A stretch of 13,787 nt of DNA from Candidatus Woesearchaeota archaeon (GTDB lineage: Archaea; Nanobdellota; Nanobdellia; Woesearchaeales; UBA525): contig DUGD01000049.1 of assembly GCA_013331575.1 (NCBI GenBank), positions 610 through 14,396 on the forward strand. The letters run 5' to 3'. Positions 6,784 through 12,183 of this stretch are shown one piece after another. The notes beneath the pieces are model-generated. The model did no database searches, was not told the origin of the DNA, and worked only from the letters and a program-made list of their open reading frames with translations. How positions within the stretch are numbered: position 1 is the stretch's first letter; each line of letters opens with the position of its first letter. A program made the translations under genes and the position numbers.

Positions 6784-7521
6784 CTACATTATCTTCAGCA
6801 GCATATATCCGAAACGGTCCGCCACACGGACGCTCTCATCGACATCAGTGTACTGCAAGACGATGCAGTTCGGGTTCTCCGTCCAACGAGCGACAGCGTT
6901 CTTTGAGCCCTCGACGAACTGGACTATGACGCGGTCCGGCGTAGCATCCTCGCAGCGATACACCGGAATATCGACTTTCGTATCGCTCGCGCTCGAGAGC
7001 GCGCTATGCACGTTGAGATTGAAAAGATTGTACTTCGTGCCGAGAAGACGCGCGACTTCGACACCAGCGACCACTATCTTGGATGGCGCATCGGGAGGAA
7101 CGCTGATGTACACTTCGGCAGGCTTGCTGTAGATGGGTGTTGTGGCCTCAGAGTCTACTGGGATATCCTCAGTCTCACGAGGATGGAAATAGAATGGGAT
7201 ATTATAGGGCTGGCCGCGCGCTTCGATACGCGTCACCCAAAGGCTGCCTTCCGCTTGCGCGAAATCAAATCCGTTATACCGGTTCTCATCGGCAGTGGTG
7301 CGGCGATCATACGCATTCCACGAGACGATGACGATGATGAGAAGGAGCACGATACCGAACGCTATGAAAAACGCCCATACGCCGCGAGGCCCGGCCTGCT
7401 CCGCATCGCCACCTGACGTGTCATCCTGCGACACGCAACCCTTCGACGTAACGCTCTTTCTCGCGCGCGTTCCGACGCCATCACGCGTGCGGGGGATCTT
7501 TGCTGCCGATGACGGCCTCAA
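6784..7521 (-). CDS. Membrane-anchored protein, second of two tandem paralogues (245 aa)
   Basis: The function is unknown. Residues 1-47 are basic, Ser/Thr/Gly-rich and probably cytoplasmic. A strong membrane helix lies at 48-68 (FFIAFGIVLLLIIVIV). The rest (about 75-245) is a beta-rich domain predicted outside the membrane. It starts with YNGFDF, then SLWVTRIEARGQPY, and contains two Cys (C190 and C219) that could form a disulfide. The upstream gene shares this plan, including the position of the Cys pair and the end (DR, then Y, then hydrophobic). I chose the TTG at 7521: it overlaps the upstream TGA stop as TTGA, and GGTGGT just before it fits the anti-Shine-Dalgarno sequence. No ATG is available in the N-terminal part. 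The pair is thus translationally coupled and probably makes a complex. I recall similar tandem pairs from DPANN archaea, but cannot name a family. Confidence 0.78.
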   Translation of the reverse strand: MRPSSAAKIPRTRDGVGTRARKSVTSKGCVSQDDTSGGDAEQAGPRGVWAFFIAFGIVLLLIIVIVSWNAYDRRTTADENRYNGFDFAQAEGSLWVTRIEARGQPYNIPFYFHPRETEDIPVDSEATTPIYSKPAEVYISVPPDAPSKIVVAGVEVARLLGTKYNLFNLNVHSALSSASDTKVDIPVYRCEDATPDRVIVQFVEGSKNAVARWTENPNCIVLQYTDVDESVRVADRFGYMLLKIM

Positions 7522-8192
7522 TCTACCACCACACCGTCTTTGAGGATGTCGTAGTACTCGAAGATGATGCGATCCTTGATCTTCATGAGGTCGCGCTGCT
7601 CCGCATTGATGATGATACACGAGCCGTCAACAACGACCGATGTCTCGTTCGTCGCATTGAAGATGACAACCGCGAGTTGCGGGCTTGCACGATCGCATCC
7701 GATGACGGGAAGCGTATAGCGTTCGTCATCGACCATCATGGAGTTGAACGCTTTCTCCGGGATGGCGAGGCCTAGTTGTAGCCGCGCGTAATCGATCATC
7801 GCTGCATTCTCGGCCCCATCCGCTAAATCGATGATACGAGGGTCGGCGCTAAGCGCTATCTGCGATGCACCTTTGAGAAGCGCCACGGCCGCAGGTGTGA
7901 CGTTCAAGTATGATACTTGGAACGGAAGATTCTGGAACTCGTTCTCCTGGCCCCCGATATCGGTCACGAGCACCCCTGCGCCATTGCCCAGATCGCGATA
8001 GACGAATTCGTATTCGCCATAGACCATCTGGTTGTCGCCTGAGGATCTGGTGTTATAGATGACGACTTCCATGATGGAGAAAAGCATGAGCCCGACCATG
8101 AAGATGCTGAAGATGAGCACGCGACGCTGTCGTCGTTTCTCTTGAGCCTGATGGTCGATTCGCTTTATGTTCCGTTTGGTTTGCTTCCCCAT
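7518..8192 (-). CDS. Membrane-anchored protein, first of two tandem paralogues (224 aa)
   Basis: The function is unknown. Residues 1-24 are strongly basic (KQTKRNIKR, EKRRQRR) and should stay in the cytoplasm. A membrane helix covers about 25-46. The remainder is probably extracytoplasmic: YGEYEFVYRDLGNGAGVLVTD at 58-78 matches YNGFDF...SLWVT of the next protein. C166 and C192 match its C190 and C219. Both end with a DR..YxxL-like segment. The TTG at 8207 is possible by frame, but the TATA box TTTAAAAG lies 30 bases before the ATG at 8192, which fixes the start. The stop overlaps the start of the next gene by two bases. The two proteins probably work together at the cell surface; that is inference from pairing and shared topology. 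Confidence 0.8.
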   Translation of the reverse strand: MGKQTKRNIKRIDHQAQEKRRQRRVLIFSIFMVGLMLFSIMEVVIYNTRSSGDNQMVYGEYEFVYRDLGNGAGVLVTDIGGQENEFQNLPFQVSYLNVTPAAVALLKGASQIALSADPRIIDLADGAENAAMIDYARLQLGLAIPEKAFNSMMVDDERYTLPVIGCDRASPQLAVVIFNATNETSVVVDGSCIIINAEQRDLMKIKDRIIFEYYDILKDGVVVD

Positions 8193-8223: not shown

Positions 8224-8446
8224 ATTATGGCGTGAGAGGCTCTCAGACGACATGGAGATTCCTGTTTGATGTGGTGGCGCTTCTACGATACAGTCCATAG
8301 CGATGGCTGTCGGTTGCAACCACATGACGGCAGACTAATGCCACAACAATGCCATCTCTAAAAGACACCTATAGATTGATACTTATAGATTCAGAATCCA
8401 ACTCAGAACCTGTATGAGTCTCTAAACGACCGAATGAGCTGCATCG
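8224..8446. other. Gap between two - strand genes with short repeats
   Basis: I see no gene here. It holds a direct repeat TATAGATT (about 8371 and 8385), a repeat of TCTCTAAA (about 8355 and 8419), the palindrome GGTTGCAACC at 8312-8321 and small stems CCAT/ATGG (8295-8306) and ACTCA/TGAGT (8401-8419). The TATAGATT copies include weak TATA-like words on the - strand. No coherent RNA fold was found. Confidence 0.3.
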
Positions 8447-9290: not shown

Positions 9291-9310
9291 CATATCTTGG
9301 TTCAGTATTC

Positions 9311-9382
9311 ATGAGTAGTACTTTGTTGAATGATGCGCTGCCTCGCGTGGAAGAACTGCGAAAACATGCGATGCTACACTGA
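9311..9382 (+). CDS. Possible 23-aa small protein
   Basis: A short frame starts with ATG 27 bases after the first T of TTTTAAAC on the + strand, close to the leaderless spacing used in this window. It would encode a peptide with an amphipathic helical look (LLNDALPRVEELRKHAML). There is no homology to cite and the length allows chance, so this is a weak call. It lies just before the three-way-junction element. Confidence 0.2.
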   Translation: MSSTLLNDALPRVEELRKHAMLH

Positions 9383-9437
9383 CGAGTACAACAGGTTAAC
9401 ATACCTCTGATAGCTGATTGCTCATTATGGGCTACTT

Positions 9438-9593
9438 TGTAGAAATCATCTCGGCCGACCGCCGCAAGTGCCGGCTTCGACGATTCGTCTCGCCGGTGCG
9501 GCGGTCCGGACATCGACGCTCTGTATCTGCGTTCTTGATGCGTTGTTCTGCTGGAGGTCGATGTCCTTCAAGGCCGTGATGATGATTTCTACA
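9438..9593. ncRNA. Unrecognised structured element: closed three-way junction of about 156 bases
   Basis: Closing stem: 13 perfect pairs between 9438-9450 (TGTAGAAATCATC) and 9581-9593. It continues with TC/GA (9451-9452 with 9578-9579) and GGCC at 9453-9456 with GGCC at 9572-9575. Arm 2: 10 perfect pairs between 9457-9466 (GACCGCCGCA) and 9497-9506, then CCGGC at 9471-9475 with GCCGG at 9492-9496, then GACG/CGTC around an ATT loop. Arm 3: 10 perfect pairs between 9508-9517 (GGACATCGAC) and 9557-9566, with CTC/GAG inside. Nearly every helix abuts the next, as in a real RNA junction. The strand is unclear: a TATA palindrome at 9613-9620 could start a - strand RNA near 9589, and a weak GTTAACAT at 9393 a + strand RNA. 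No T-run terminator is obvious on either side. I know no matching family. A small inverted-repeat mobile element is an alternative, but no target-site duplication flanks it. Confidence 0.65.
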
Positions 9594-9612
9594 CTGCTTC
9601 TATGGACAAAAC

Positions 9613-9620
9613 TTTAAAAA
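9613..9620 (+). promoter_or_regulatory. TATA box for alaS
   Basis: TTTAAAAA begins 30 bases before the ATG at 9643, so the alaS message should be leaderless. The reverse strand reads TTTTTAAAG and might direct transcription into the structured element at 9438-9593. Confidence 0.75.
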
Positions 9621-9642
9621 CCGCCGACCGTGTCCTGCACTC

Positions 9643-12183
9643 ATGATCCGGCCCGACAAAGAAGTCAAACGCGAATTCAAAGGCATCGCTAGCGCACACC
9701 CCGACAAGTATTACGCTACGCGCGTGCTCAAACGCGAAGGCTTCGAACGTAAGCGCTGCGCATGCGGAACGGCATTCTGGACGGTCAACGAGAACCAGAT
9801 CGTCTGCGGCGATCCGACGTGCAGCGGCGGCTTCCGGCTTTTCGAGAACAACCCTGCTAAGCACCAGATGACCTACGTCCAGACATGGCAGGCGTTCGCG
9901 AAGATGTTCGAGCAGAAGGGTTACAAAGTCATGAATCGTTATCCTGTCGTCGCACGATGGAATCCGACCATGGAGTACACGATAGCGTCCATCGCAGCGT
10001 TCCAACCGCACGTCGTCAACGGCGATGTCGAAGCGCCGGCGAAACGCCTCGTGATCCCGCAGTTCTGCCTCAGGTTCGGTGATATCGACAACGTCGGGAT
10101 CACAGGGAGCCATTTGACGGGATTCATCATGATAGGACAGCACATGTTCGTCCCGCCGAATGAGTGGGACCAGGATGCCGCGTTCCAGGATCTCTACGAT
10201 TGGTTCACGCAAGGATTGGGCCTGCCCAAAGAAGAGATCACGCTCCACGAGGATGCGTGGGCGGGCGGCGGCAATTTCGGTCCCTGCATGGAGTTCTTCT
10301 CGCGTGGCGTGGAACTCGGTAACCAGGTCTATATGCTCTACGAGCAGACGCCCGACGGCGATAAGGACTTGAAGATCAAAGTGCTCGATATGGGTATGGG
10401 GATGGAGCGCAACGCGTGGTTCAGCCAGGGCAAAGGCACTGCGTACGATGCGACATTCCCGCTCGTCATATCGCGCATCCTCGAACGGACGCACCACACG
10501 CCCAATATCGAACTGCAGAAGAGATTCCTGCCCAAAGCGAGCTATCTCAACATCGACGAGACCGATGATATCCAATCCGCGTGGGAACGCGTCGCGAAAG
10601 AGCTGGGGGTCGATGCCTCTAGTTTACGCGCCGCGATCGAGCCGATGCAGGCAGTATACAGCATCGCCGAGCACGCGCGCAGCCTCCTCTTCGCGCTCAG
10701 CGACGGAGGATTGCCGTCCAACGTAGGCGGAGGGTACAACCTCCGCACCATATTCCGCCGTGCGCAAGGATTCATCGAACGGCACAATTGGGACCTCGAC
10801 ATGGGCGAAGTCGCCACGTGGCACGCTGAGGAGCTGCAAGCGATATTCCCCGAGCTCTTGGCGAACATCGCGGAGACAAGAGCGATCCTGGCCGTCGAGA
10901 AGGAGAAACACGTGGAAAGCCGCAAGAAGGCGCAGCAAGTGCTTGAGAACGAGCACAAGAAGTCCGGTGATGCAGGCATCAGTATCGGGAAGCTCATCGA
11001 GCTCTACGATTCCTGCGGCCTCCATCCTGATGCGGTGAGCGCGTTCGTAAAGAGCAGAGGGGGCAAACCGCTCGTGGTCCCGGACAACTTCTTCCAGCTC
11101 GTGAGCGAACGCCACGAGAAGCAAGAACAGAAGACCGCGACGCGCAAGAGCACGCACTTCCCGGTCGATGGGCTGGCCCGCACCGCGCCGCTCTACCTGA
11201 CATCGTACGACCTGCTTTCGTTCAACGCTAAGGTGATGAGGGTATTCGACGAGAAACACGTCGTGCTCGATCAGACCGCATTCTACCCGACAAGCGGCGG
11301 CCAGGAGCACGACACTGGCACCATCACAGGCAAAGACGGTATTGCGTATAACGTCGTCGATGTCATAAAGCAGGGCGGCATCATCATCCACGTCTTGGAG
11401 AACGAACCCGGGTTCGATGAAGGGGATGTTGTGGAAGGTAAAGTCGATTGGACGAGACGGCAACAGCTCGCGCAGCACCACACCGCGACGCATATCATCA
11501 ACGGAGCGGCACGCAAGGTGCTCGGCAACCATGTATGGCAGGCGGGCGCCGCCAAGACGACCGAGAAGGCACGCATCGATATCACGCACTACAACGCACT
11601 CTCCGATGATGAATTGCGCAGCATTGAGGAGGAGGCGAATCGCGTGATACGCGCCGACATCCACCTACATCACGGCCTCGTGCCGAAACGCGACGCGGAA
11701 GCGCAGCACGGATTCCGGCTCTATCAGGGCGGCGCGGTCCCTGGAAAGGAGATCCGTGTCGTGGACATACCGGGTTTCGACGTCGAAGCCTGCGGCGGCA
11801 CCCACCTGAACCACACCGGCGAAGCGGTCATGATCAAGATCCTCAAGGCGAGCAAGATACAGGACGGCATCGTCCGCATCGAGTACGTTGCCGGCGACCA
11901 GGCAAAATGGTATGTCGCCGAACGCGAAGCGCTCCTCGCGACCATTCGAGAGGCGCTCGATGTGGAAACCGACGCGATGATACCTTCCGCGACCGAGAAT
12001 CTGTTCGCGAAATGGAAAAAAGCGCGCAAAGGGCCGCTCACCGACTGGAAGGACAGCGCATTAATTGCGTATAACGGAGACCCGCTCACGAAGGCGGCCG
12101 AAATACTCCAGACGCAACCACAGACCATCATCCCGACCATCAAGCGATTCATCGCGGACATAGAGCGGGCGCAGAAAGACTAG
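9643..12183 (+). CDS. alaS: Alanyl-tRNA synthetase, archaeal type, without C-Ala domain (846 aa)
   Basis: It charges tRNA-Ala with alanine in the cytoplasm. The archaeal N-terminal extension is present, with a Cys set (C39, C41, C55, C60) resembling a zinc finger before the class II catalytic core. Class II core features include MTYVQTWQAF at 76-85, RWNPTMEYT at 105-113, QFCLRFGDIDN at 140-150 and the motif 3 region MGMGMERNAWF at 250-260. The helical tRNA-recognition region follows to about 500. The editing domain, which hydrolyses Ser-tRNA-Ala and Gly-tRNA-Ala, carries HHTATH with H613 and H617, and CGGTH with C717 and H721. After about residue 760 there is only a helical stretch and the protein stops at 846. 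The glycine-rich DHHA1/C-Ala domain usual for AlaRS is not seen; archaeal relatives are commonly about 900 residues. The leaderless ATG is set by the TATA box 30 bases upstream. Confidence 0.96.
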   Translation: MIRPDKEVKREFKGIASAHPDKYYATRVLKREGFERKRCACGTAFWTVNENQIVCGDPTCSGGFRLFENNPAKHQMTYVQTWQAFAKMFEQKGYKVMNRYPVVARWNPTMEYTIASIAAFQPHVVNGDVEAPAKRLVIPQFCLRFGDIDNVGITGSHLTGFIMIGQHMFVPPNEWDQDAAFQDLYDWFTQGLGLPKEEITLHEDAWAGGGNFGPCMEFFSRGVELGNQVYMLYEQTPDGDKDLKIKVLDMGMGMERNAWFSQGKGTAYDATFPLVISRILERTHHTPNIELQKRFLPKASYLNIDETDDIQSAWERVAKELGVDASSLRAAIEPMQAVYSIAEHARSLLFALSDGGLPSNVGGGYNLRTIFRRAQGFIERHNWDLDMGEVATWHAEELQAIFPELLANIAETRAILAVEKEKHVESRKKAQQVLENEHKKSGDAGISIGKLIELYDSCGLHPDAVSAFVKSRGGKPLVVPDNFFQLVSERHEKQEQKTATRKSTHFPVDGLARTAPLYLTSYDLLSFNAKVMRVFDEKHVVLDQTAFYPTSGGQEHDTGTITGKDGIAYNVVDVIKQGGIIIHVLENEPGFDEGDVVEGKVDWTRRQQLAQHHTATHIINGAARKVLGNHVWQAGAAKTTEKARIDITHYNALSDDELRSIEEEANRVIRADIHLHHGLVPKRDAEAQHGFRLYQGGAVPGKEIRVVDIPGFDVEACGGTHLNHTGEAVMIKILKASKIQDGIVRIEYVAGDQAKWYVAEREALLATIREALDVETDAMIPSATENLFAKWKKARKGPLTDWKDSALIAYNGDPLTKAAEILQTQPQTIIPTIKRFIADIERAQKD

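Follow-up and report, generated by a model that had tools for sequence, protein, structure and literature searches.

Just upstream of alaS in a 13,787-nucleotide stretch of a Candidatus Woesearchaeota genome (the window), 156 bases form a set of nested and adjacent inverted repeats, which raises the question of whether they specify a structured RNA or are a piece of repetitive DNA. The original prediction, made from the sequence alone, left two possibilities, a new archaeal small RNA or a small inverted-repeat element.

Structure of the Element

The MFE fold of the element is a three-way junction in which two arms are enclosed by a closing stem (Table 1). The 13 perfect pairs predicted for the closing stem, 9438-9450 with 9581-9593, were all recovered, and together with the inner extension they make 18 pairs rather than the 19 first counted. 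Both arms had been expected to start with 10 perfect pairs, as arm 2 does, whereas arm 1 starts with 9; the arms, described as directly abutting, are set apart by a single base (9507). Folding of the two strands, proposed at the outset as a check, gave -84.9 kcal/mol (z -9.07) for the plus strand and -80.0 kcal/mol (z -8.34) for the minus strand, with 0 of 200 dinucleotide shuffles folding as well in either case. When a GC-corrected scan was made in 160-nt segments, the segment at 9441-9600 had a folding z of -4.48, and none of the 8215 segments in part of a same-genus genome fell below -4.

At the gathering threshold no Rfam family matched the window, and no tRNA or tmRNA was detected in it. 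A relaxed Rfam search of 9300-9700 (E up to 10) gave five sub-threshold matches only (snoRNAs, C4 target, and fluoride). The folded structure is real, but other copies of it exist in the genome.

Table 1. Coordinates of the element, its parts, and related features (window positions unless a locus is named)
Feature	Position	Strand	Basis or remark
Whole element, 156 bp	9438-9593	.	Folds of both strands and further copies in own genome
Closing stem, left arm; 13 perfect pairs with 9581-9593	9438-9450	+	MFE fold
Closing stem, right arm	9581-9593	+	MFE fold
Inner extension CGGCC; pairs with 9572-9576	9452-9456	+	MFE fold
Inner extension, right arm GGCCG	9572-9576	+	MFE fold
Arm 1; first 9 pairs GACCGCCGC/GCGGCGGTC (9457-9465 with 9498-9506)	9457-9506	+	MFE fold
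Arm 2; 10-pair perfect helix (9508-9517 with 9557-9566) closing a 39-nt loop	9508-9566	+	MFE fold
Most conserved stretch, GTTCTGCTGGAGG (reverse complement CCTCCAGCAGAAC)	9545-9557	+	Exact genome matches
Minus-strand reading TAGAAATCATCATC..GGCCTTGAAG, in register with C99 TAGAAATCATCATC..TGCCTTGGAG	9566-9591	-	blastn, 26 nt
Second, class-I element, partly decayed	8272-8357	-	R3, 35.8 bits, E 1e-7
TATA-like TTTAAAA	9613-9619	+	Centre ~22 nt from element edge, 27 nt before alaS ATG; conserved in G002
alaS, neighbouring gene (PF01411, PF07973)	9643-12183	+	ORF
Class-II elements	L133 5441-5960; L141 7561-7760; L152 9561-9720; L134 1161-1320

Copies in the Same Genome

The assembly of the source genome (G000) comprises 1,625,642 bases in 99 contigs and is 74.6% complete; the window lies on contig C74, and the contigs on which copies were found (C19, C21, C52, C56, C61, and C65) all belong to it. 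G000 holds five further full copies of the element (C61, C65, C52, C21, and C19) and one gapped copy (C56). The C61 copy (78% identity, E 2e-22) and part of a third copy, on C56, were found by blastn. The conserved 13-mer of arm 2 has five exact matches in the genome, four of which lie in element copies (C74, the copy in the window, C61, C56, and C52), and the fifth, on C48, has no fold of the element type. A covariance model of arm 2 trained on three copies (R1) added C65 (46 bits, E 8e-11), C21 (28 bits, E 4e-5), and C19 (23 bits, E 0.002). A six-copy model scored its own training copies at 64-76 bits, as it does by construction, and the C56 copy, which contains an assembly gap, at 17 bits compared with 16.5 for the next match. 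Because the model barely separates the two, the assignment of C56 is based on blastn, the 13-mer, and the closing stem. Dispersed copies, originally proposed as a sign of a mobile element, are thus present as six full copies and one gapped copy in G000, in addition to many elements of the wider set described below.

The full copies measure 138-192 nt, with folding z-scores from -3.2 to -9.2 that vary with copy and strand. All are closed by inverted repeats at their ends, the sequence of which is wholly different between subtypes, with none common to all. The order of the arms in the MFE fold is the same in five of the six full copies; C19 folds otherwise, with the closing stem and arm 1 formed and arm 2 absent, and is for this reason the least certain member. 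Outside the stems, four copies share an exact loop motif, which is near-exact in C65 and C21 and lost in C19.

Compensatory Changes in the Stems

Over six copies, 5 of the 10 pairs in the arm-2 helix have changed on both sides, with 95% of cells paired, and the covariation score was reached by 0 of 500 shuffles. Between the window and C61, the closing stem keeps 18/18 pairs with three double changes, and arm 2 keeps 15/18; the closing stem of C65 keeps just 10/18 as aligned. Arm 1 keeps 9/19 pairs in C61 and 6/19 in C65, in an alignment where MAFFT shifted this arm; by eye, its first helix shows one C-G to A-T exchange, GACCGCCGC/GCGGCGGTC in the window compared with GAACGCCGC/GCGGCGTTC in C61 and C65.

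Covariation in the stems was what the RNA idea had predicted, and it was found among the copies within G000, in arm 2 and the closing stem. The copies could be structured small RNA genes of one family, each transcribed, with the three-way junction and its 39-nt loop as the putative working RNA. The covarying stems and the conserved loop motif argue for such genes, but embedded wobbles and A-C mismatches favour both strands in turn, with no consistent strand, and no Rfam family corresponds to them; we regard this explanation as possible, if rather unlikely. Compensatory change can also be mimicked by quasipalindrome correction, in which template switching would keep the arms of functionless inverted repeats alike. 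The wholly different outer stems of the subtypes would fit such a process; the persistence of the loop motif, which lies outside the stems, in all copies but C19 and the shared arm order of five of the six full copies speak against it, and we consider it very improbable.

A Wider Set of Modular Elements

The C52 copy carries two extra hairpins, and a search of the own genome with five copies showed that these recur on C63, C99, C54, C83, C59, C51, and C47 (E 7e-6 to 0.013), in sequence that is strongly folded and in several cases closed by long stems. With the window arrangement designated type A, two further classes were distinguished: class I, elements with TTGTGGCCTTGGCG and a 91-nt core, and class II, elements with GCCTTGGAG, some of which have a right-end hairpin like that of IS200/IS605 elements. 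A second element in the window itself, partly decayed, belongs to class I (Table 1).

An element on C99 contains both arms of the window closing stem, followed in register by GCCTTG (window minus strand). This 26-nt match has a blastn E of 0.055 in 476 kb, and the G002 control of that run reached an E of 0.14 at best. The tie of the window element to the wider set, through C99 and the hairpins shared with C52, is therefore weak, and sequence alone does not prove it. On C47, a 22-nt stretch (L133 6786-6807) matches the end of the window stem and the start of arm 1 (91%, E 0.016).

At the class-II loci of Table 1, an IS200/IS605-like right-end hairpin (CCCCGCCCTTTAGGGCGGGG..TTCA) is found beside a stem that nested hairpins have enlarged. 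Enrichment of the right-end word [CG]CCTTTAGG[CG] is only weak, with 6 occurrences in a sample of G000 compared with 1 in a sample of G002, the reversed word giving 2 and 2. Inspection by eye of L151 201-480 revealed three consecutive tRNA-like 3' ends (CCGGGTCTAGGCG), separated by hairpins, that may be remnants of attachment sites; at L139 511-770, strong hairpins come after a tRNA-like gene that probably contains an intron.

Abundance Compared with a Same-genus Genome

Three sets of sequence were compared: the G000 sample of 20 contigs taken by number without regard to elements (261,353 bases), the sample of the same-genus genome G002 (334,745 bases), and a chosen part of G000 picked for known copies (214,262 bases). 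A model of class I (R3), with strong matches defined by E<=1e-7, gave 11 strong matches in the 261 kb of the G000 sample, two of them training sequences, and none in the 335 kb of G002, where one match had an E of 0.44. The chosen part likewise gave 11 at E<=1e-7, including four training sequences and the element at 8272-8357 of the window. By extrapolation, the whole of G000 would contain ~68 class-I elements.

GC-corrected folding z-scores below -4 were found for 8 of the 6331 160-nt segments of the G000 sample, compared with 0 of the 8215 of G002. The eight represent seven loci, two of which (L139 and L151) hold tRNA-like genes by eye and are not clear elements. The pattern GCCTTGG.G.{3,7}CAG occurs 20 times in the sample, twice in G002, and 12 times in the chosen part (reversed, 0, 0, and 1). 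Long inverted repeats numbered 16 in G000 and 17 in G002 at the loosest threshold (14 and 14 in simulated sequence) and 3 and 0 at the next (4 and 2 in simulated sequence). This count did not separate the two genomes; the folding-energy scan did.

Short N gaps are located within some elements where a hairpin would be expected (L005/L008 on C56, L139 17124, and L154 6450), and of the 33 N runs in the sample, 4 are no more than 150 nt away from a motif. Because such gaps fall inside elements, copy counts may be low. The motif is not enriched at contig ends (2/34, compared with 1.9 expected).

Range outside the Own Genome

The sets of genomes searched (58, 352, 9, and 371) overlap, and each includes the own genome. 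Across 58 genomes, blastn of the element matched its own genome and a 31-nt stretch of G003 (E 0.008), the surroundings of which are not folded like the element, and R1 matched the own genome only. R2 searches of the order (352 genomes) and the phylum (371 genomes) scored at most 13-14 candidates per genome under stricter filters. In the order, R2 matched the own genome and gave four weak matches (E 0.0014-0.019), all of which were inspected; in the phylum it matched the own genome only. One of the weak matches, G246:C19:7907-7989 (L080, E 0.019), from another family of the order, is strongly folded and has a 13-pair enclosing stem; with G-U pairs allowed, similar stems enclose two further weak R2 matches, on C83 of the own genome and on G003:C57. 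Among nine genomes of the family, R2 searched to E 5 produced 33 rows from genomes other than the own, the best in G002 (E 0.003), and the nine inspected lacked the arrangement. On the G000 and G002 samples it gave four weak matches, two of which (L139, E 8e-4, and L147) lacked the arrangement by eye. Judged by these sequence searches, no credible type-A relative was found outside the own genome in the sets covered.

The exact 19-nt motif was found in 21 stretches among genome contigs, a collection that may omit records of the own genome; all are bacterial (12 from Pandoraea) and none archaeal. Motif scans of viral contigs gave 0 matches, and blastn of the element gave two short plasmid matches at E 0.4 and none in phages. 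Rfam at the gathering threshold identified only two tRNAs in nine loci. Among the literature matches listed, which cover the field in limited part, there was no description of such repeats in Woesearchaeota.

Position Relative to TATA-like Words and Genes

Among the matches listed for AlaS, the closest relative is 79% identical; of those that carry an organism name, the best belongs to Woesearchaeota (57%). Similarity to G002 in the block containing alaS sets in at 9605, 12 nt past the element edge; another similar block spans 7518-8145, and the sequence between them differs in length and content. Directly upstream of the alaS TATA-like word, G002 has no sequence matching the element. By this comparison G002 does not provide a clean empty site, as its neighbouring sequence differs too. 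The earlier view that the element is probably not the alaS leader agrees with the TATA-like word, which lies between element and gene and is kept in G002 without a matching sequence directly upstream.

In 5 of the 7 type-A copies, the centre of a TATA-like word is 19-29 nt away from one edge, and the searched words were found nowhere else within 70 nt of those copies. By our reading, each word points away from its element and would serve the neighbouring gene: alaS in the window, a small ORF on C56, a minus-strand ORF on C61, and tRNA-like genes, recognised by eye, on C21 and C52. ARAGORN reported no tRNA at L007, where the tRNA-like sequence holds an N gap. Class I was examined in 21 of its 22 strong R3 matches, one being cut by a contig end. 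Words at a distance of 46-57 nt from the inner stem were seen in ten elements in all (5' side, 5; 3' side, 6); others lie at 19, 40, 68-72, and >95 nt, and several elements have none.

These positions bear on two of the explanations. A cruder test, in which several stems were mis-assigned, had placed a TATA-like word 18-60 nt upstream of the 5' end (GCCTTGG orientation) in 10/35 elements compared with 2/35 mirrored, a result that leaned towards RNA genes. The refined tests put words at either end (5 versus 6 of 21 in class I), and among the five type-A copies the side varies as well; the word is therefore probably not the element's own promoter, the idea of an own promoter drawn from the cruder test was dropped, and the fixed-end promoter of a small RNA gene was not seen. 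Alternatively, the element could act at the DNA level as an upstream regulatory element, a cruciform or protein-binding palindrome at a fixed distance before core promoters that controls the adjacent gene. The similar spacing to the neighbour's word in 5/7 copies and the clustering in class I are consistent with such a role; the adjacent genes (alaS, tRNA-like genes, and small ORFs) look unrelated by eye, however, and G002 keeps the alaS TATA without a matching sequence directly upstream, which makes regulation of this kind improbable.

According to a mechanical ORF list, most type-A copies sit in gaps between longer ORFs; a 336-codon ORF runs through the C65 copy, and the copies in the window and on C21 and C19 share bases with shorter ORFs or with the ends of ORFs. 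No transposase was recognised by eye among the type-A neighbours. On C84 (L003 1501-1534), a stretch of a coding ORF is antisense to part of window arm 2 (85% over 34 nt, E 2e-4).

Search for Signs of Transposition

Target duplications, which the original prediction had named as a mark of a transposable element, were inconsistent: of 7 copies, 2 had 7-nt flank matches, each with a chance probability of about 0.02, and the distances were uneven. The TnpB profile PF07282 had no match in the 74.6%-complete assembly, and tblastn with plasmid TnpA and TnpB queries, TnpA with one bacterial query, found neither in 29% of the genome. Integron attC sites were also considered as a candidate, but the element ends TTAGGC..GCCTAA presumably read the wrong way round.

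A class-II stretch with a right-end-like hairpin had matches in 1129 plasmid records, none extending across 80% of the query. Among the best 25 of these 1129, eight fall under TnpB or transposase annotations, with E about 1 each; of three matches inspected, two abut TnpB or transposase genes, and the best (E 2e-4) is intergenic. The plasmid matches suggest that IS200/IS605-type transposition may act in trans. An omega-RNA would lie at the 3' end of a tnpB gene, a setting that was not seen, PF07282 being without a match in the assembly.

Discussion

Our preferred interpretation, held with somewhat better than even confidence, is that the element is a copy of a lineage-specific, dispersed, modular, hairpin-rich repeat family (MITE/BOX-like) situated just upstream of the alaS core promoter. 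The points in its favour are the diverged copies, the compensatory change, the shared modules, the TATA-adjacent sites in 5/7 copies, and the lack of a matching sequence at this spot in G002; the case is slightly weaker because of the G002 control match (E 0.14) and the caveats that apply to C19 and C65. With respect to the original pair of alternatives, the inverted-repeat side gains from the dispersed copies and not from target duplications, and the small RNA side gains from covariation.

The family resembles several known systems without coinciding with any of those compared. BOX elements of Streptococcus are described as short, interspersed, modular, and hairpin-forming, with a varying number of modules and with repeat families that insert into one another (PMC3049150). 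The repeats here are likewise short, interspersed, modular, and hairpin-forming, and modules were gained or lost between copies, as the C52 hairpins illustrate. The BOX elements are bacterial and are reported with terminal inverted repeats and target duplications (PMC3049150), whereas duplication is inconsistent here and the stem sequences differ between subtypes. Prokaryotic MITEs (reviewed in PMC10969869) are small, non-coding, and dispersed, with inverted-repeat ends, and G000 too holds several dispersed short copies of this kind; the differences are that no terminal inverted repeat is common to all copies, duplication is inconsistent, and no parent transposon was found in the searches made.

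REP/RAYT systems consist of dispersed palindromes with complementary stem changes that are thought to be moved by IS200/IS605-type transposases (PMC3733652), and dispersal and complementary change are features of the present family also. REPs measure 20-40 bp in that account (PMC3733652), compared with 138-192 bp for the full copies here and 156 bp for the three-way structure of the window, and no tyrosine transposase was found in the part of the genome searched. The right ends of IS200/IS605 elements and omega-RNAs offer a further likeness, in that some class-II relatives have a CCCCGCCC..GGGCGGGG hairpin like that of the 3' ends of tnpB (compare PMC12558985); the window element differs in having no right-end hairpin, and no TnpB was detected in the 74.6%-complete assembly.

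Most likely, we infer, folded DNA was, or still is, the form in which the elements move, and they were retained at or directed to sites just upstream of core promoters. As repeats, they would have spread as non-autonomous mobile DNA, probably via folded single-stranded DNA recognised in trans by an IS200/IS605-type transposase. A mover of this type is proposed on the ground that elements of one class in the wider set terminate in a hairpin like the right end of tnpB elements; the need for recognition of the folded form would have maintained the pairing. Elements would insert, or survive, preferentially ~20 nt upstream of TATA boxes, where the TBP/TFB site perhaps guides insertion or where the element is tolerated beside it. 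With copies as strongly diverged as these, any mobility need not be recent. It is also conceivable, if on balance doubtful, that these are a new archaeal element class, either RNA genes or mobile DNA, which docks via TBP/TFB at a fixed distance upstream of core promoters, captures hairpin modules, and has dozens of copies in one DPANN lineage.

Many repeats are not what one would expect in small-genome DPANN archaea. A strong fold and covariation within one genome are not by themselves proof of an RNA gene. Structured, modular repeats present by the dozen in one species, several of them promoter-adjacent, and undetected in the examined part of a same-genus relative would offer a useful means of studying the spread of palindromic repeats and the possible alteration of promoters by them.
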